Shown here piece by piece: positions 19,123 through 25,947 of a DNA stretch of 36,101 bases. The notes under the pieces are model-generated. The model searched no databases and had not been told where the DNA came from. It worked only from the letters and a program-made list of their open reading frames with translations. Source of the stretch: Pseudomonadota bacterium (GTDB lineage: Bacteria; Pseudomonadota; Gammaproteobacteria; Burkholderiales; Thiobacillaceae); NCBI GenBank assembly GCA_021802945.1, contig JAJZRE010000026.1, positions 1 to 36,101 of the forward strand. Reading direction: 5' to 3'. Numbering within the stretch: position 1 is the stretch's first letter; each line of letters begins with the position of its first letter. The position numbers and the translations under genes were made by a program.

Positions 19123-19995
19123 CTATATCTCGCGCACCACGCGGAAGCCCAGATTGATATCCAGCTCGTTCTCCAGCCTGCGGCGGCGGGCGGCGGCGCG
19201 GCAGTCCTCGGGGCCGTCGAACCAGGAGCCGCCCTTGGTGACGACGGCGTGCGGCCTGCCGGGCAGGGGGCGCTCGGGCAGGCTCGCGTGGTCGCGGGTC
19301 CAGGGGCTGGCGGTGAATTCCCACACGTTGCCCGGCATGTCGTGCACCCCCCAGCGGTTGGGGCGCAGCTTGCCGACTTCCATCGCGCCGCACCGGACGA
19401 AGCAGCGCGACAACAGGCGCGGCCGCTTGGGTCGCGCGGCGTCATAGCCCTGGCTGGCGTTGTAGAGCGCATCCGCCGGGGTGATGCGGTCGCCCTGCGG
19501 ATACGCCGTCGCCGCGCCGGCACGGCAGGCGTATTCCCATTCCTGCTCGCTGGGCAGGCGGTAGCGCTGCCCGGTCTGCCGGCTCAACCAGACACAGTAA
19601 TCGCGCGCCTCGGTCTGGCGCACATTGATCACCGGCTTGCGGCCGGACAGCCACACCAGTTCCGCGCGCGGCCGCCAGCCGGTGGCGCGGGCATAGGCCT
19701 CGAATTCCTCGGTGGTGACCGGGTGCACGCCGATGGCGAAGCTGCGCTCGACCAATGCCGCGCGGCGCGGGCGGTCCTGCGCCGGCGCAGATTCCTGCGG
19801 CGCGGCACCGTATTCGAATCCGCCCGCCGGGATGAGGACCAGCGCGGGCGCGGACGAGCCGTCGGGCAGGGGGTCCTGAAAATGGGTGTCGGCCAGGCCC
19901 AAGGCATGTGCGGCGTTGACCTGCAGCGCGATCAGTTCGCCCTCGTGCAGGGCCAAGGTATCGGGCAGGGCGGAGGGGGTGCGGTCGGGATTCAT
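19123..19995 (-). CDS. SUMF1 (formylglycine-generating-enzyme-like) domain protein
   Basis: A 290-aa protein with the SUMF1 fold: LVLIPAGGFEYGA, FAIGVHPVTTEEFEAYARATGW, ARDYCVWLSRQTGQRYRLPSEQEWEYACRAG, PNRWGVHDMPGNVWEF, VTKGGSWFDG and GFRVVREI. Of the two copper-binding cysteines of true formylglycine-generating enzyme only the second has a counterpart (PEDCRAAAR); the first is Asp, so sulfatase activation is unlikely. Related proteins act in unrelated oxidations (EgtB, NirV) or bind ligands, and no specific role can be assigned. The start Met is the first after a gap with no coding signature; upstream in-frame residues are low-complexity. The catalytic neighbourhood contains no sulfatase gene. 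Confidence 0.82.
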   Translation of the reverse strand: MNPDRTPSALPDTLALHEGELIALQVNAAHALGLADTHFQDPLPDGSSAPALVLIPAGGFEYGAAPQESAPAQDRPRRAALVERSFAIGVHPVTTEEFEAYARATGWRPRAELVWLSGRKPVINVRQTEARDYCVWLSRQTGQRYRLPSEQEWEYACRAGAATAYPQGDRITPADALYNASQGYDAARPKRPRLLSRCFVRCGAMEVGKLRPNRWGVHDMPGNVWEFTASPWTRDHASLPERPLPGRPHAVVTKGGSWFDGPEDCRAAARRRRLENELDINLGFRVVREI

Positions 19996-20190
19996 GGTGT
20001 CGGGCAGGGCGCGGATGACTGGAATTATGCCATTTCCGCGCAGGATCCATGCGGCACGCGGCCGCATGGAATGAAGGCCCGACGAAGCGCGGCCTGCCCT
20101 GGCGTGGCCACGACATCGTCGCGCCACGCCGCCGTCGGCGGACAGCGACGGCGTGTGCCTGGCGCCCGGGCCGGACGGAAAAGCATCGAA

Positions 20191-20229: not shown

Positions 20230-21099
20230 ATGGGACACCCCAGGTCCTCCCGCGCCCTTTCAACCGACATGCTTTACATCGACCTCTTCAAATCCCTGGA
20301 ACGCGCCCGCTGGAACATGGAAACCGACATTCCGTGGGACCAGTTCGACGCCGGCAAGCTCACCGACGAGCAGGCGCTGACCATCAAGATGAACGCCATC
20401 ACCGAGTGGGCGGCCTTGCCGGCCACCGAGATGTTCCTGCGCGACTTCGTGCACGACAGCGACTTTTCCGCCTTCATGTCGATCTGGTTCTACGAGGAGC
20501 AGAAGCACGCGCTGGTGCTGATGGAATACCTGCGCCGCTTCAGGCCCGAGTTTGCGCCGACCGAGGAAGAACTGCACGCCATCCGCTTTCCGTTCGATCC
20601 GGCGCCGCCGATGGAAACCCTGATGCTGCATTTCTGCGGCGAAGTGCGGCTGACGCAGTGGTACAAGTGCGCCTCCGAATGGCACACCGAACCGGTGATC
20701 AAGTTCATCTACGAGACGATCTCGCGCGACGAGGGCCGTCACGGCGGTGCCTACCTGCAGTACATGAAGCGCGCGCTGAAGGAGGGCGGGACGGGCGTCG
20801 CCGCGGCCTTCGCCAAGATCGGCTTACTGATGGCGTCGAGCCGGCGTTCAGACAAGGCGCTGCATCCCACCAACCTGCACGTCAACGAAGCGCTGTTCCC
20901 CCAGGACACCATCCAGTCGCGCCTGCCCAATCCCGAATGGCTGGAACACTGGCTCGACGAGCAGATCCGCTTCGACGAAACCTGGGAAAGCAAGGTGGTC
21001 GGCGGCATCCTGCGCAACCTCTCGAACCTGCTGGGGCAGACCTTCGAGAACGTGCGCGACCTCAACAAATACCGCAAGCAGGCGCTGGCTGCGGCCTGA
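20230..21099 (+). CDS. Ferritin-like diiron protein
   Basis: Protein of 289 aa, all-helical, with the carboxylate/histidine pattern of a ferritin-like diiron site: ITEWAALPATE near residue 60, FYEEQKH at about 88-93, FCGEVRLTQWY, then ISRDEGRHGGAYL. The EExxH and DExRH spacing recalls acyl-ACP desaturases and related oxidases (rubrerythrin-superfamily fold) more than storage ferritin, and no thioredoxin-like or rubredoxin domain is fused. The reaction is unknown. ATG 20230 is used; MLYIDLF at 20269 is an alternative start close to the first helix. Transcription probably ends at the strong hairpin 15 bp after the stop. Confidence 0.72.
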   Translation: MGHPRSSRALSTDMLYIDLFKSLERARWNMETDIPWDQFDAGKLTDEQALTIKMNAITEWAALPATEMFLRDFVHDSDFSAFMSIWFYEEQKHALVLMEYLRRFRPEFAPTEEELHAIRFPFDPAPPMETLMLHFCGEVRLTQWYKCASEWHTEPVIKFIYETISRDEGRHGGAYLQYMKRALKEGGTGVAAAFAKIGLLMASSRRSDKALHPTNLHVNEALFPQDTIQSRLPNPEWLEHWLDEQIRFDETWESKVVGGILRNLSNLLGQTFENVRDLNKYRKQALAAA

Positions 21100-21113
21100 C
21101 ACGCACCCCGAGC

Positions 21114-21150
21114 ACAAACAAGGGCCAGCGTTCGGCTGGCCCTTGTTTGT
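21114..21150 (+). terminator. Perfect 16-bp hairpin terminator
   Basis: A perfect inverted repeat of 16 bp (21114-21129 with 21135-21150) encloses the loop GTTCG. The arms end in the A-rich ACAAACAA and T-rich TTGTTTGT, so the structure can act on either strand. It follows the ferritin-like gene by 15 bp and insulates it from the bufferin cluster. Confidence 0.88.
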
Positions 21151-21300
21151 GGGTCCGATTCTTGAGGGGGGATGTCCGGAAGAGGGGGCCATCATTTTTT
21201 GCCGGCGAGGTGGAAGACGGGCAGGCGACTGCGCCACATCGGGCAAAGGGGATGCGCGGCGGGCCTGTCCATCGTGCATTGAAGGGGACGAAAAAGAACC

Positions 21301-21330
21301 TGTAAGGAATGACGGCCGGGCGCGACTCAT
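21301..21330 (+). promoter_or_regulatory. Candidate ECF-sigma-type promoter of the bufferin cluster
   Basis: TGTAAGGAAT (21301-21310) could serve as an ECF-type -35 (GGAA core) and CGACTCAT (21323-21330) as its -10, about 80 nt before bufA1. Bufferin operons in other bacteria are controlled by ECF sigma factors, but no sigma or anti-sigma gene is in this window, so the assignment is tentative. The rest of 21151-21408 contains no convincing gene. Confidence 0.3.
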
Positions 21331-21408
21331 GCCTGTCCGCAGCACTTTTGCCGGCGGATGCTGGCCAAGGCCGGCGACATTTTCGAACCTTATCTGGAGA
21401 GTCACATC

Positions 21409-21735
21409 ATGGACAAGCGTCACTTCGTCAAAACCGCCGCCTCCTCGCTGCTTGCACTGGGCATCGTTGCCGCTGCCGCGCCCGGCCAGGCCGCCAGCAT
21501 GGACAAATGCTTCGGAGTCGCCAAGGCCGGGCAGAACGATTGCGCCGGCATTTCCGGGCTGCATTCCTGCAAGGGATCGAGCACGACGAGCTACGATCCG
21601 GGCGATTTCAAGGCGGTTCCCACCGGCACCTGCGCGAAGATGGGCGGCCTGAGCATGCAGCAGGCCAAGGAAACGCTCAAGGATCCCGCCAGGGTGAAAG
21701 CCTTCGAGCAGGCCATGCAAAAGCGCATTTCCTGA
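21409..21735 (+). CDS. bufA1: Bufferin-1 precursor peptide (DUF2282 family)
   Basis: Precursor of a ribosomally made, modified copper-binding peptide of the bufferin class, 108 aa. A signal peptide ([26 protein letters not shown], cleavage after about residue 28) directs export. The core has four cysteines at 34, 45, 54 and 75 within [22 protein letters not shown] and [11 protein letters not shown], the pattern of DUF2282 proteins. In studied bufferins, cysteines are converted by the MNIO enzyme to thiooxazoles that bind copper, and the peptide is exported to the periplasm. GGAGA 8 nt upstream supports this start; the earlier in-frame Met lacks one. It is followed in order by bufB, bufC and a DoxX gene. 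Confidence 0.9.
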
Positions 21736-21797
21736 ACCTGACGCAGGGGCCGGGAAAGCGCCGGCCCCTGAATCGTCCCTGTCCTGGAATCACGCCC

Positions 21798-22691
21798 ATG
21801 CAGCCTGCCCACCCCATGAATGGAATCGGCCTGCGCCAGCCCCACTATCGGGAATTTCGTGCCGCGCGCCCGACCCTGGGTTTCGTCGAGGTGCACTCGG
21901 AGAATTTTTTCAACCCTCACGATGCCGCGGCGCAGGTTCTCGCCGCCGTCCGCCAGGACTACGCGATCAGCCTGCACGGCGTCGGCCTGGCGCTGGGTTC
22001 GGCCTGCGGCGTCGATGATGCGCATGTCGAACGACTGGCCGCGCTGGTCGAGCGCATCGACCCCGTGCGCGTGTCCGACCACGCCAGTTTCGCGCGCGCG
22101 CCCTGGTCGCAGCGCGGCATCATCCACGCCAACGACCTGCTGCCCATTGCGTTCACGCACGATTCACTGGACATTCTGTGCAGCAATGTCGAGCAGGTGC
22201 AGGAACGTCTCAAGCGGCCGCTGCTGGTCGAGAACCTGAGCGCCTATCTGGATTTCGCCGAGCGCGATTTCAGTGAGCCGCAATTCTTGGCCGAACTGGG
22301 CCGCCGCACCGGCTGCGGCCTGTTGCTCGACGTCAACAACCTGATGGTCAACGCCCTGAATGCTCATGAAGCCGATCCCGTCCAATCCGTGTGCGACTGG
22401 ATCGACGAGCTGGCGCATGTGGCGACGCCCGGCCTCGTCGGGGAAATTCACCTGGCCGGGTTCAGCGCGCAGGAAGGCCTGATCATCGACGATCATTCCG
22501 CCCTCGTGTCGGAGCCGGTCTGGCTGGCCTGCCGGCACGCGTTGCAGCGGCTGGGGCCGGTCCCCACGCTGATCGAGTGGGATGAACGCCTCCCCGCGCT
22601 GTCCGTGTTGCTCGGCGAGGCCGCCAAGGCCGAGGCCCTATGCGCGGCGCACCGCGACGCACGGATTGCCGTCGAAGGCGCTGCGGCATGA
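21798..22691 (+). CDS. bufB: Bufferin maturation enzyme, DUF692 multinuclear iron oxidase (MNIO)
   Basis: Cytoplasmic enzyme (297 aa) of the MNIO family, a TIM-barrel binding two or three iron ions that oxidises peptide cysteines. Conserved metal-ligand segments are all present: EVHSENFF (33-38), SLHGVG with His60, VSDHASF with His95, LVENLSAY with Glu145, LLLDVNNL with Asp178 and Asn180, GEIHLAGF with His218, IDDHS (231-234) and LIEWDE with Glu260. Together with the adjacent precursor and partner gene this identifies a bufferin-type rather than a methanobactin- or TglH-type system. The open frame extends far upstream, but the ATG at 21798 starts a few residues before the family's GIGLRQPHY opening. 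Its stop overlaps bufC (ATGA). Confidence 0.92.
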
Positions 22692-23518
22692 ACGGGGAAC
22701 CCCGCATGTCCGAGGCGCGGCGCCAGCGCGAACTGATCGACGCGATATTCTCAACCCGGACGCCGGATGCCCCGTGCGCGGGCGCGCGGCAAAGCGGGAC
22801 GCGCTGGCGGACGGGGCTCGCGGCCTACCGCGGCAACGGCCGCGCCCATGCGTGCAATGCCTTGCAGGTGCAGTTTCCCACCATTCTGGCCATGCTCGGT
22901 GCGGAGACATTCGACGCCTTGTGCTCCAGCTATTGGCGGACATGCCCACCCCGCCGGGGCGACCTCGCCTGGGTCGGTGAAGCATTGCCCGCTTATATCG
23001 AAACGCTGGACACCCTGGCCGAATGGCCCTGGCTGGCCGACTGCGCGCGCCTGGACTGGACCGTGTGGCAGATGTCCGGCGCGCCCCCGGCGACATTCTC
23101 CGAGGGCGACCTGCGTCGCCTGGCCGACGGCGATCCCGCCGCGCTCGCACTCAGGCTTTCCCCCGGCGTGCGTCGGCTGTCCTCGGCGTGGCCCATCGTG
23201 ACCCTCTACGACGCCCACCGCCAGGCGCATCCGGACTGGGCGGCGGTTACCCGGGCAATCGCGCAAAAGCGCGCGCAGACGGCCTGGGTATGGCGTCCGC
23301 GGGAGAATCTTGCCGCGGCGCCAGCGGTGGAAACGCTCGATGCGGCAAGCGAACGCTGGGTCGCTGCGCTGGACGCCGGGCAAACGCTCGACCTTGCGCT
23401 CGATTCGGCCGGCGAGGCGTTTGATTTCGCCGCCTGGCTGGAACAGGCAATCCGGCAGGGTTGGCTCGACGCCGTGGCCGATAGGCATGCGCCGTCCGAT
23501 GCGATGGACAACGCCTGA
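22688..23518 (+). CDS. bufC: Bufferin maturation partner, DUF2063 family
   Basis: Protein of 276 aa that accompanies the MNIO enzyme. DUF2063 proteins are thought to bring the precursor to the enzyme. Family features: an N-terminal [10 protein letters not shown] helix, [18 protein letters not shown] (the R-N--A-ALQ--FP element continues as [12 protein letters not shown]), [12 protein letters not shown] and [11 protein letters not shown]. The C-terminal half is less conserved ([25 protein letters not shown]). It starts within the bufB stop, indicating translational coupling and near-equal expression of the two proteins. The ATG at 22688 is preferred over an in-frame GTG/ATG upstream inside bufB. 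Confidence 0.88.
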
Positions 23519-23574
23519 ATCCACGCCGCCTCCCGCGAGCTTCAACTCACCCCGGCAACTTGAGGAACGACACC

Positions 23575-24057
23575 ATGAATACGTTGAGTCCCAACAGTAC
23601 GGCCCATCGGGAATCCGGCATGCTCCGACGGGGCTGGTCCGGCCTGGAGGCCGTGCTGGCCTGGCTGCAGGCGCCGGCGCTTCTGGCCGCCAGGCTCTAT
23701 GTCGCCTATGTGTTCCTTGCGTCCGGACTCGAAAGCCTGCGCAGCTGGGATGCCACACGCTATCTGTACGAGAGCGAATTCCATGTCCCGGTCCTGCCGC
23801 CGCATGTCGCGGCCGTGCTCGGCACGGCAGGGGAGGTGCTGCTGCCGCCGCTCCTGCTGCTGGGGCTGTTCGGCCGCTTCGGCGCGCTGGGCCTGTTCGT
23901 GGTCAATGCCGTGGCCTTGCTGTCCTACCTGTATGCGCTGCAGCCCCCGGCCATCCTGTTTCACGTCATCTGGGGCATTCTGCTGGCCGTGGTGGCCCTG
24001 TGGGGACCGGGCAGGTGGTCGGTCGATCACCTGCGAGAGCGGGCCAGTCGCAGATAG
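23575..24057 (+). CDS. DoxX-family membrane protein of the bufferin cluster
   Basis: Inner-membrane protein (160 aa) with four hydrophobic helices, starting with RLYVAYVFLASGLESLRSW, then the VLGTAGEVLLPPLLLLGLFGRFGALGLF segment, the usual DoxX core. AGGA lies 8-9 nt before the ATG. DoxX-type genes commonly close DUF2282/DUF692/DUF2063 operons; their role may be in quinone-linked electron transfer or export, but this is unproven. A 56-bp spacer separates it from bufC, without a hairpin, so it is probably in the same transcript. Confidence 0.85.
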   Translation: MNTLSPNSTAHRESGMLRRGWSGLEAVLAWLQAPALLAARLYVAYVFLASGLESLRSWDATRYLYESEFHVPVLPPHVAAVLGTAGEVLLPPLLLLGLFGRFGALGLFVVNAVALLSYLYALQPPAILFHVIWGILLAVVALWGPGRWSVDHLRERASRR

Positions 24058-24348
24058 GGGGGCGAAACGATGACGCGTTATCGGCAGTCGAGGCGGGCTT
24101 ACCGTTCGTGCGAGCGTCCGTTATGAGGTTGTACTCATACAGGGCCGAAATCGGCCAATGGAACGGACGATCAGGCCTCTCTCGGAGAAGGTCCGGTTGT
24201 CTGCTGACTACAGGCCCTTAACGGTACCGCCAGGGTCGGCGTCGACAAAGCGCAACTCGCCCGATTACCGCGCTACAGAAGATCGGAATACCCCGTCCTG
24301 CGATCTTGCGGTGCTCAGGCGAGTTGGATTGACAGGTTGTGGACAGGG
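24058..24348. other. Gene-free spacer with a nested inverted repeat
   Basis: No frame here resembles a gene. The region contains an outer inverted repeat CAACTCGCC (24253-24261) / GGCGAGTTG (24318-24326) that encloses an inner one AAGATCG (24279-24285) / CGATCTT (24301-24307). It may be a decayed mobile-element end or a terminator-like structure between the bufferin cluster and the convergent outer-membrane gene; there is no T-tract. Confidence 0.45.
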
Positions 24349-25131
24349 TCAGAAAACACGCGTGAGCATTGCACCCGCGCCCCAGTCCGGGCTGGCATGC
24401 GAGAAGCCGTCCACCCAATAGCCCTGTGCTTTCCAGTCCTGGTTGAGCTTGTGGCTGACAAACGCAGTCACTTCACGCTGTGCCGCGCCCGTTGGCGTTA
24501 CCTTCTGACGCAAATCCAATATCAGGCCGCCACTGGTTTGCTGCGTGATTTTGTATACGCCACCCACCGAGCCGAAGAACACGTTGTCTAGCTTAAGCCC
24601 GGGCGCGTCGCCCATCACTTTGTAGCCCACAGTGCCCAAGGCGGTGAACATACCGGCGGTTTTGTACATATCCACTTGCGCAGAATAGTCATTCGCGCCG
24701 GTGCCCAGGCCTTTTTTCTCATCCGCCGTTCCGAACTTGACCTTGCCGGTCAGGTCGACCAGGAATGGGTTCGACCCGGTTTCGCGATAGAGGTTATAGG
24801 TGGCGCCCGCCACGACATCCCCCAGGCCTGCTTTGGCAGTGCGGGTAGCCTTGGCAGTGCCCACCACAATACCCCCTTGGACCACGTTGCCGGGACCTGT
24901 AATCCGGACATAGGGAACAGTAAGCTTGTAAACCCAGCGCCCGGTTTCGTAGCTTCCGGTGAGAGGAATGTACAGAATATCGGTGGATTGCGTGCCGCCA
25001 TATTTGCCCGAACTATAGTCCACCCCTGTAGTGAGGCTGAAGCCGGAGTCTCCAGCGACCGCCTGGAATGACACCATGATCAGGGTAGCGAGGGCGCTAG
25101 CCAGGGGCGCACTTTGTGTGATTTTTTTCAT
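24349..25131 (-). CDS. Outer-membrane beta-barrel protein (MetA-pathway phenol-degradation family-like)
   Basis: Secreted protein of 260 aa. It has a signal peptide (KKITQSAPLASALATLIMVSFQAVA), alternating short beta-strand-like segments (FSLTTGVDYSSGKYGG, YETGRWVYKLTVPYVRITGPG, AKAGLGDVVAGATYNLYRE) and a terminal phenylalanine (LTRVF-stop), as expected for an outer-membrane barrel. The pattern 'GLGDV--G--Y' resembles the Phenol_MetA_deg transporter family, but the substrate is not known. AAGG sites precede the start. Base composition is visibly lower in GC than that of the neighbours, which suggests acquisition. It lies 26 bp downstream of the repeat-protein gene, so they probably form an operon. 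Confidence 0.75.
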   Translation of the reverse strand: MKKITQSAPLASALATLIMVSFQAVAGDSGFSLTTGVDYSSGKYGGTQSTDILYIPLTGSYETGRWVYKLTVPYVRITGPGNVVQGGIVVGTAKATRTAKAGLGDVVAGATYNLYRETGSNPFLVDLTGKVKFGTADEKKGLGTGANDYSAQVDMYKTAGMFTALGTVGYKVMGDAPGLKLDNVFFGSVGGVYKITQQTSGGLILDLRQKVTPTGAAQREVTAFVSHKLNQDWKAQGYWVDGFSHASPDWGAGAMLTRVF

Positions 25132-25157: not shown

Positions 25158-25616
25158 TTATGAGTGTTCGGGACGTTCGACCTGTTCGGGACGTTCGACC
25201 CGCTCGGGACGTTCGACCCGCTCGGGACGTTCGACCCGCTCGGGACGTTCGGCCCGCTCGGGACGTTCGGCCCGCTCGGGACGTTCGATCTGTTCTGGGC
25301 GCTCCACCCTTTCCATACCCTCCGCTTTCCCGGCCCGCTCCACTTTTTCTGGTTTTTCGGCTTTTTCAATACGCGCTTCATTGCGCTCCAGCCGCTCATG
25401 TGCGTTTTTCAACCCGCGGTTGTCCGGACTCCTGTCAAGATTTTTGTCAACGCTGGTCAATGCCTGGCTGAGCGGTTGCCCGGGTGTCGCGGTTGCTGAG
25501 CTGGCGCCGCTTGAGGTGCCCCCGGGAAGCGGAGTGGCGGTAGTCGTGCTCGCAGCCATTACAAGATTGCTGCCGCCGATAAGAAATACTGCGGCAATAG
25601 CGGTTTTAGTGAACAT
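25158..25616 (-). CDS. Exported protein with ERPERV/ERPERA hexapeptide repeats
   Basis: Protein of 152 aa, unrecognised. A signal peptide (FTKTAIAAVFLIGGSNLVMA, residues 2-21) is followed by a Ser/Thr/Gly/Pro linker, a basic-acidic segment (DKNLDRSPDNRGLKNAHERL) and a C-terminal array of hexapeptides of the ERPERV type from about residue 105 to 150, ending ERPEHS. The array is highly charged and devoid of hydrophobics apart from V/A/I every sixth position, so it is probably extended or disordered. Start at 25616 is set by AGGAGA 5-6 nt upstream; the frame runs further upstream without signal. It is immediately upstream of the outer-membrane gene. A role in metal binding or surface anchoring would be guesswork. 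Confidence 0.7.
   Translation of the reverse strand: MFTKTAIAAVFLIGGSNLVMAASTTTATPLPGGTSSGASSATATPGQPLSQALTSVDKNLDRSPDNRGLKNAHERLERNEARIEKAEKPEKVERAGKAEGMERVERPEQIERPERAERPERAERPERVERPERVERPERVERPEQVERPEHS
25166..25309 (-). repeat. Eight 18-bp tandem repeats (coding)
   Basis: Eight adjacent 18-bp units, of which seven are near-identical and the last (25292-25309) is degenerate. On the plus strand each reads roughly GCTCGGGACGTTCGACCC. Each unit encodes one hexapeptide of the exported protein. The similarity of the units at the DNA level indicates recent amplification by slippage or recombination. Confidence 0.9.
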
Positions 25617-25947
25617 GAGCGTCTCCTGTTGAGTAGTGATCCTGTCTGTCCGGGCTGGTATAAAATTTAAATAATCCAAGCCGTTGGCAGCAGACCATAT
25701 TGTCTGGATCGTGTCAAACACCGGCCGACAAACGGCATGGCATGGGGGATGTATGGCTACCTGGAAAATATTGTCAGCCTGCGCTCCGCTTGACCGCCCA
25801 ATCAGTGCCAGCGGCTCTTGATGTCATCGGGTTGGATTCGTCAGGTTGGTCGATGGGCATGACACAAGGCAAAACCGTGAACCAGGGCAGTGTTATTCCT
25901 CGCGATTCGTATGGATTGTTCCGATAGGATCACTCATGCCCCACGCC
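25617..25947. other. Spacer between repeat protein and fluoride operon
   Basis: I see no convincing gene. A 75-codon plus-strand frame (25700-25927) has no family features or conserved residues. The stretch 25659-25675 is AT-rich and probably holds the promoter of the repeat-protein gene, although no clean -35/-10 pair can be named. Confidence 0.5.

Follow-up and report, generated by a model that had tools for sequence, protein, structure and literature searches.

What switches on a bufferin operon that has no sigma factor gene beside it? This question is raised by a 36,101-nucleotide stretch of DNA (the window; positions 1 to 36,101, forward strand, of contig JAJZRE010000026.1) from the Thiobacillaceae assembly GCA_021802945.1, in which positions 21409-24057 (+) are a complete Buf1 (DUF2282) bufferin operon with the gene order bufA-bufB-bufC-doxX. 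The original prediction, made from the sequence alone, had described a complete bufA1-bufB-bufC-doxX cluster of bufferin architecture; indeed, the four genes lie where it had placed them, and all of them score above their Pfam cut-offs in a profile search (DUF2282, MbnB_TglH_ChrH, DUF2063 and DoxX). The order of a four-cysteine DUF2282 precursor, an MNIO enzyme, a DUF2063 partner and a DoxX protein is the same as in the published Buf1 clusters CC3254-3257 of Caulobacter and gigPABT of C. metallidurans. The nearest relative, locus L026 in a Hydrogenophilales metagenome-assembled genome (MAG) from groundwater, carries the same four genes, with identities of 88, 87, 82 and 93% for BufA, BufB, BufC and DoxX, respectively, and Thiomonas species and unnamed MAGs of Proteobacteria rank next. 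Taken by itself, the cluster is ordinary, since published work already covers the genes, chemistry and copper function of Buf1 systems (PMC12452194, PMC13097082); the high interest of the original prediction rested on bufferins being recently described, and thousands of them have already been collected (PMC12452194). We consider it likely that this operon is turned on in trans by an extracytoplasmic function (ECF) sigma factor of the meningococcal sigmaE/Haemophilus RpoE2 type. Judging from sequence comparison, this stress sigma factor, whose gene lies in another part of the genome, probably switches on buf and also appears to control the repair of oxidised methionine.

The conserved motif upstream of bufA

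No gene with a sigma-70 region 2 was found on the window's contig, and all eight matches in the genome lie elsewhere, in agreement with the earlier statement that no sigma/anti-sigma pair is linked to the cluster. That statement had been accompanied by a possible ECF-type promoter, and at the very position where the predicted cluster interval began we found a phylogenetically conserved motif (21301-21327, +), consisting of a predicted -35 element TGTAAGGAA (21301-21309), a 13-nt spacer and a predicted -10 element CGACT (21323-21327). A BufB scan of genome contigs provided the relatives for comparison, namely the best 80 of 87 loci, 65 of which have a BufA match on the same strand. In 23 of 30 aligned bufA upstream regions (29 Thiomonas-type loci and the window, excluding loci without a BufA match and L039, which has the motif but an unclear start), the two-block motif TGT[A/C]AGGAA ... 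CGAC[C/T]AA was present, while mononucleotide shuffles of the same regions gave a mean of 0.06 matches. The spacer that follows the first ten bases measures 12 nt in 15 of these regions and 13 nt in the other 8, and the motif also precedes bufA in some more distant Burkholderiales. Within the 2.55-Mb assembly, the strict pattern TGTMAGGAN{9,14}CGAC occurs twice, once at buf and once inside an ECF sigma factor gene.

In its sequence, the buf motif (TGTMAGGAA-N-CGACY) resembles the similar promoter elements of meningococcal sigmaE (GTMAGBWTT, 12-13 nt, CGTCTAAH; PMC2893595) more closely than the GTAACC-N16-CGAA promoter of Caulobacter sigmaF, which together with NrsF serves the Caulobacter buf genes (PMC3511200). 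In C. metallidurans, the gig genes are accompanied by rpoQ and by rsqA for a predicted membrane-bound anti-sigma factor, in contrast to the window, and the published account identified no promoter upstream of the gig operon (PMC10304878). Sigma factor and NrsF genes have been reported with some Buf1 clusters and with no Buf2 cluster in the text of PMC12452194, and a SigF-type gene, called by regular expression, occurs in 4 of our 65 loci. Another regulator, either a housekeeping sigma factor with a copper sensor or a Caulobacter-like SigF/NrsF pair, might therefore drive the operon, the motif being a coincidence or a remnant. Such a regulator would also fit the rise in gig expression upon rpoQ deletion, in a report that shows no dependence on RpoQ although its authors still assume it (PMC10304878). 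However, NrsF (PF06532) had no match in the assembly, which is 87.6% complete, and none of the sigma-70-type sites covered by the site scan was found in 20500-25000. Moreover, the motif is absent from all four SigF-type loci and is kept at a fixed spacing across highly diverged upstream regions, and we regard a regulator of this other kind as very unlikely.

The candidate sigma factor and its proposed regulon

The gene that contains the second strict match (G000:C28:11403-11966, −) lies on another contig than buf and encodes a TIGR02943-type ECF sigma factor (183.5 bits; cut-off 162.2) that is present as a single copy in the assembly. Directly downstream lies a gene for an anti-sigma factor of the zinc-binding ZAS type (NF052368, 61.2 bits; cut-off 50; HxxxCxxC motif by eye), and meningococcal sigmaE/MseR and H. 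influenzae RpoE2/HrsE likewise consist of an ECF sigma factor and a small ZAS anti-sigma factor (PMC2893595, PMC7907618). A tblastn search of the best 80 of 87 buf loci with the contig-28 ECF and its anti-sigma factor revealed homologues of both beside buf: the ECF gene is near bufA in 21 of the 65 relatives (13 divergent and directly upstream, 8 elsewhere in the locus), with an anti-sigma match in 18 of these 21 (11/13 and 7/8, respectively). The divergent ECFs that were scored (L035, L032, L055 and L066), as well as the second ECF type of genus member G015, all exceed the TIGR02943 cut-off. The motif was found in 18 of the 21 loci with an ECF homologue, as opposed to 0 of the 4 with a SigF-type gene. 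These comparisons suggest as regulator a TIGR02943-type ECF together with a ZAS anti-sigma factor, a pair that is unlinked to its putative target in this genome. Thiomonas and related loci (L027-L054, L086, L091 and L098) are like the window in gene content, precursor tail and promoter motif in most cases and have a hairpin after bufA in many, but differ from it in that many carry the ECF/anti-sigma pair within the locus, either divergent to bufA or at another place, and in that doxX is reversed relative to buf in nine.

In the window's own genome, the ECF/anti-sigma pair adjoins genes for a PCuAC copper chaperone and a TonB-dependent receptor (L108, G000:C28:7000-14500). These genes were considered as ECF targets and rejected, as strict and relaxed scans gave no upstream motif; this copper-gene neighbourhood was therefore not used as evidence.

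Across 56 genomes of the window's genus, the pattern TGTMAGGAN{14,15}CGACY gave 99 matches versus 20 for the reversed pattern. At least one match outside the ECF gene was present in 21 of 26 ECF-bearing genomes versus 1 of 9 without the ECF (G029, where the ECF match is weak and the pattern has no match, was excluded, and 20 genomes not searched for the ECF were left unused). Twelve chosen buf-bearing genomes gave 37 matches versus 7 in the control, with a copy inside the ECF gene in all twelve. Downstream genes were read in 40 chosen stretches, mostly around matches outside the ECF gene, and thus for 45 sites rather than all 99. The first gene was msrP at 14 sites, msrAB at 9 (the frame in L224 breaks off early) and a Buf2-like precursor at 6, with an MNIO gene following in five (L220 ends at the contig end). 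The remaining sites precede doxX (3), DUF302 (3), DUF1223 (2), second-type ECF genes themselves (3; L200, L201 and L235), EGKCG-type precursors (2; in L200 the site is the copy within a partial ECF gene, 347 bases away) or nothing clear (3). Pfam confirmed five representatives (DUF1223, DUF302, molybdopterin oxidoreductase, PMSR and DoxX) and gave no match for the Buf2-like one; other assignments were made by eye. In this genome, msrP (NCBIfam MsrP, 481.7 bits) has TGTAAGG-N15-CGACT about 37 bases before its start (site at C73:6335).

Loci with a reversed doxX provide an independent check of the motif, because such a gene cannot share the buf transcript: the motif lies 74-110 bases before the doxX match in nine of nine Thiomonas-type loci, some of which are close relatives of one another. 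A reversed doxX occurs in four more loci, precisely the SigF-type ones, and in these no motif precedes it.

Two further sites are of interest in their own right. In a Thiomonas MAG (L238, 169-195), the motif precedes a gene that by eye is dsbD-like; if it is dsbD, thiol-disulfide exchange would join the regulon. In L236 (2266-2387), two copies stand back to back about 70 bp apart, one directed toward an EGKCG-type captophorin precursor and the other toward DUF302.

Taken together, msrP and msrAB are the commonest putative targets in the stretches read (23 of the 45 sites). Since copper stress can also oxidise methionine, readings in terms of copper and of oxidants overlap. It is conceivable, though doubtful, that the bufferin chiefly scavenges oxidants or non-copper metals, copper binding being secondary, and that the regulon shared with msr genes points to stress from oxidants or sulfite. 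H. influenzae RpoE2 responds to hypochlorite (PMC7907618), S. meliloti factors of another ECF group, ECF26, respond to sulfite (PMC3511301), and roles in gold and mercury handling have been raised for bufferins (PMC12452194). Nevertheless, the characterised Buf1 product of Caulobacter binds Cu(I) and Cu(II) and helps cells to grow when copper is in excess (PMC12452194).

The proposed set of targets is in line with previous work on related sigma factors. The sigmaE and RpoE2 regulons similarly comprise msrAB and a DoxX operon (PMC2893595, PMC7907618), which from PMC13097082, where Buf1 clusters are grouped with captophorins, we read as a captophorin cluster. Caulobacter sigmaF controls a YedY-type gene and two DUF2282 operons (PMC3511200). 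In H. influenzae and N. gonorrhoeae, captophorin precursors belong to the EGKCG type (PMC13097082), whereas the precursor here is a DUF2282 protein; and the meningococcal sigma gene is part of the DoxX operon (PMC2893595), whereas here the proposed Buf1 target lies on another contig and msrP would be an additional target. The main text of PMC12452194 makes no mention of zinc, zf-HC2 or Thiomonas. Within the open-licence literature, what is new is the placing of Thiobacillus/Thiomonas-like Buf1 and Buf2 operons in a TIGR02943-ECF/ZAS regulon with msrP and msrAB, the separation of the ECF/anti-sigma pair from buf in this genome, and the intragenic motif described below. The analysis thus offers a concrete candidate promoter, a sigma/anti-sigma pair and a short list of putatively co-regulated genes; the proposed regulon would link copper sequestration and methionine repair in bacteria from the environment, in a way that recalls sigmaE and RpoE2 with the DoxX operon of Neisseria and Haemophilus.

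A motif copy within the sigma factor gene

The strict match on contig 28 might have been dismissed as chance because of its position inside a gene, an explanation that we dropped when the full motif proved to be intact in each of the 26 genus-type ECF genes, where its cysteine codon is TGT, as well as in 24 of 31 others. In these 57 non-redundant genes it falls on the codons for C-[KQ]-E-L-x-I-[TS]-[PS]-T-N or variants thereof. The cysteine codon of the motif is TGT in 55 of the 57 genes, compared with 34 of 161 other cysteine codons of the same genes and 15 of 55 codons for an equally placed conserved cysteine further on (Fisher tests on these codons treat related genes as independent). TGC is the usual codon in the background, TGT accounting for 289 of 1841 cysteine codons in 286 long open reading frames of L026-L105 and L197. 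A codon-pair bias of cysteine with lysine or glutamine was rejected as the cause, as TGT stands before AAG or CAG in just 4 of 71 cases in the same reading frames, ECF genes included. The bias indicates selection on the DNA rather than on the protein.

In this genome, the start of the anti-sigma gene follows the internal site after about 80 nt. Together with the codon bias, this position suggests an intragenic promoter for the anti-sigma gene; another function at the DNA level is the alternative. We lean slightly towards the view that the ECF for bufferin and methionine-repair genes carries its own promoter inside codons of its DNA-reading domain, kept by synonymous selection across diverged genera, so that one stretch of DNA would both code for a portion of the domain that presumably recognises the -35 element and act as the anti-sigma promoter. 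This arrangement would constitute a feedback switch for a widespread copper/oxidant regulon that takes in Buf1, Buf2 and EGKCG captophorins, and it makes a simple, testable prediction. No report of an intragenic promoter in TIGR02943-type ECF genes was found among the listings of open-licence literature; some of the papers listed do combine 'internal promoter' or 'intragenic promoter' with ECF terms, but TIGR02943 appears in none of those in the later listing. In the second-type ECF gene of G015 (L154), the internal -10 element has been lost, and a strict motif faces away from the ECF.

Several findings weigh against control of the operon by the contig-28 ECF, or against the assignments on which it builds. 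The motif is missing from 7 of the 30 close upstream regions; two of these (L027 and L038) are one mismatch off, L086 has the motif just past the 200-nt limit (seen with 260 nt), and in L047-L049 the upstream stretch resembles another small gene. Among the 40 loci in which neither sigma type was found, the motif is missing from 21 and present in 19. The -10 element of the meningococcal consensus is CGTC (PMC2893595), while that of the buf motif is CGAC. A relaxed pattern is not enriched in this genome (8 matches versus 9 for the reversed control), so that the assignment of msrP to the regulon rests on comparison and not on a genome count. The contig-28 ECF has no motif in its own upstream region but another conserved element, and genus-type ECF upstream regions likewise have no motif (25 loci). 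DUF2282 is patchy in the genus, with 3 of 36 genomes including the window's own, whereas an ECF of the contig-28 type is present in 25 of 36; the ECF thus has a life without buf. As for the operon's products, BufB reaches 296.2 bits against NCBIfam MNIO_BufB (NF050167), 14 bits short of the cut-off of 310, which we treat as a threshold matter and not as a defining trait, the other four MNIO models listed trailing this one by over 130 bits; and the AlphaFold model of BufA is poor (mean predicted local distance difference test score, pLDDT, of 48).

Finally, identity between the contig-28 ECF and its buf-linked counterparts is just some 39-47%, and the two genus members G015 and G028, which have DUF2282, carry a second ECF type within about 3-5 kb of the DUF2282 gene. 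Given also that the assembly is 87.6% complete, the driver could be a second, buf-type ECF paralogue in the unassembled part of the genome, with the cluster otherwise as described. Against this stands G060, the genome of L026 with its nearly identical operon, in which a single ECF match at E ≤ 1e-20 was found, of the genus-wide type and 95% identical (the match coordinates are the same as those of genus member G078). Furthermore, the genus-wide ECF has the same motif in its own gene in every case, as expected if this ECF reads the motif. A hidden paralogue is in our view unlikely, and control by the contig-28 ECF is preferred.

Gene products, RNA structures and neighbouring genes

The first gene, bufA1 (21409..21735, +), encodes a 108-residue precursor that matches PF10048 with 78.7 bits (cut-off 22.4); its profile score thus lies within DUF2282, as originally proposed, and so does the count of four cysteines hold. 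Cys34, Cys45, Cys54 and Cys75 are invariant across 20 aligned precursors. By eye, the N-terminus looks like the Sec type, with a charged start, a hydrophobic stretch and an AQA-like end. Export by Tat was considered as well, the KRxFV/L start being presumably akin to the KR form of the Tat motif; this likeness was not used, some close relatives beginning with MNKQHLL or MNKYQIL, and Tat export is not claimed. From about residue 82, the window precursor has a clade-typical C-terminal tail, unlike the Buf1 precursors of Caulobacter and C. metallidurans. The tail, modelled by AlphaFold as two short low-confidence helices, was found in 15 of 16 aligned Thiomonas-type precursors and is lacking in L045 and four other Burkholderiales precursors. 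Variants of the precursor gene were seen among the relatives: L028 (4627-4968) and L027 (4630-4971) encode DUF2282 precursors whose mature part has five cysteines rather than four, of which three central ones may be modifiable, and in L037 (3992-4769) and L098 (568-1344) a tandem pair of bufA genes stands ahead of a single bufB.

BufB (21798..22691, +) is an MNIO (DUF692) enzyme of 297 residues (PF05114, 286.8 bits; cut-off 25), and the assembly contains one MNIO and one DUF2282 match. The metal-ligand segments that the original prediction had noted are present by motif, with H60, H95, E145, D178, N181, H218, D231 and H233. Loss of one ligand, on account of LAGF in place of what we take to be the usual LAGH, was ruled out, as cpMbnB also has F there. 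Paired by segment and HMMER alignments, without structural superposition, these residues correspond to those of VcMbnB (iron ligands His55, His91, Glu135, Asp165, Asn168 and His194; conserved loop Asp209/His211), and those iron-ligand segments of MbnB taken from PMC8888699 are thus found in BufB. The partner protein BufC (22688..23518, +; 276 residues; putatively PME type 1) matches DUF2063 over residues 12-104 (PF09836, 58.1 bits) and is near the published size class of DUF2063+RRE partners; its gene overlaps bufB by exactly 4 bp (ATGA), just as had been read from the sequence. Last in the cluster, as expected, is doxX (23575..24057, +), in the bufD position, encoding a membrane protein of 160 residues (PF07681, 54.2 bits; 54.4 bits against the HvfX family, under its cut-off of 80).

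Two RNA structures flank bufA. The insulating terminator proposed upstream was borne out in part: between a ferritin-like gene (named by eye) and the operon lies a terminator-like 17-bp palindrome with a 5-nt loop (21113..21151; RNA fold -34.5 kcal/mol), which may insulate the operon from the upstream gene, but its U-run is part of the stem and a simple terminator scan did not list it. Between bufA and bufB, a 10-bp GC-rich hairpin without a U-run was found (21744..21770, +). Of 26 Thiomonas-type loci with a BufB identity of 63% or more and a gap of 50 nt or more from bufA to the BufB match, 16 have a fold after bufA that ranks in the lowest 5% when compared with randomly placed windows of that locus, versus 3 of 19 others; the binomial p-value of this test overstates independence because the loci are related. 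Same-locus windows served as the control because z-scores against dinucleotide shuffles are modest (-2.1 for the window; below -2 in 15 of 58). As the stems differ in sequence, it is the structure that recurs, and the hairpin probably protects bufA mRNA or lowers read-through.

A sequence of events can be proposed from these elements. Periplasmic or thiol stress caused by copper, oxidants or perhaps sulfite would, by homology, free the TIGR02943 ECF from its zinc-binding anti-sigma factor; the ECF would then transcribe buf from the site at 21301 and msrP from the related site on C73, and also the anti-sigma gene from the promoter copy inside its own gene, amounting to negative feedback. The hairpin after bufA would keep precursor mRNA above that of the maturation enzymes. 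As is known for the family, BufC would present BufA to BufB for oxidation of Cys45 and Cys54 to thiooxazoles, and the product, exported by Sec and carrying a Cys34-Cys75 disulfide, would bind periplasmic copper, and MsrP would repair oxidised methionines at the same time.

Around the operon, the window encodes a protein that looks secreted and contains an extended series of VERPER-type repeats (25158-25721, −) and, next to it, an outer-membrane-like protein (24349-25131, −). Neither has a Pfam match, and the latter gave a weak, sub-threshold score against the amyloid transporter FapF (19.1 bits; cut-off 700). About 1.3 kb upstream of the cluster, on the opposite strand, lies a gene for an FGE-sulfatase-domain protein (19126-20127, −; 152 bits), and fusions of Buf1, cytochrome c and FGE-sulfatase are mentioned in PMC12452194.

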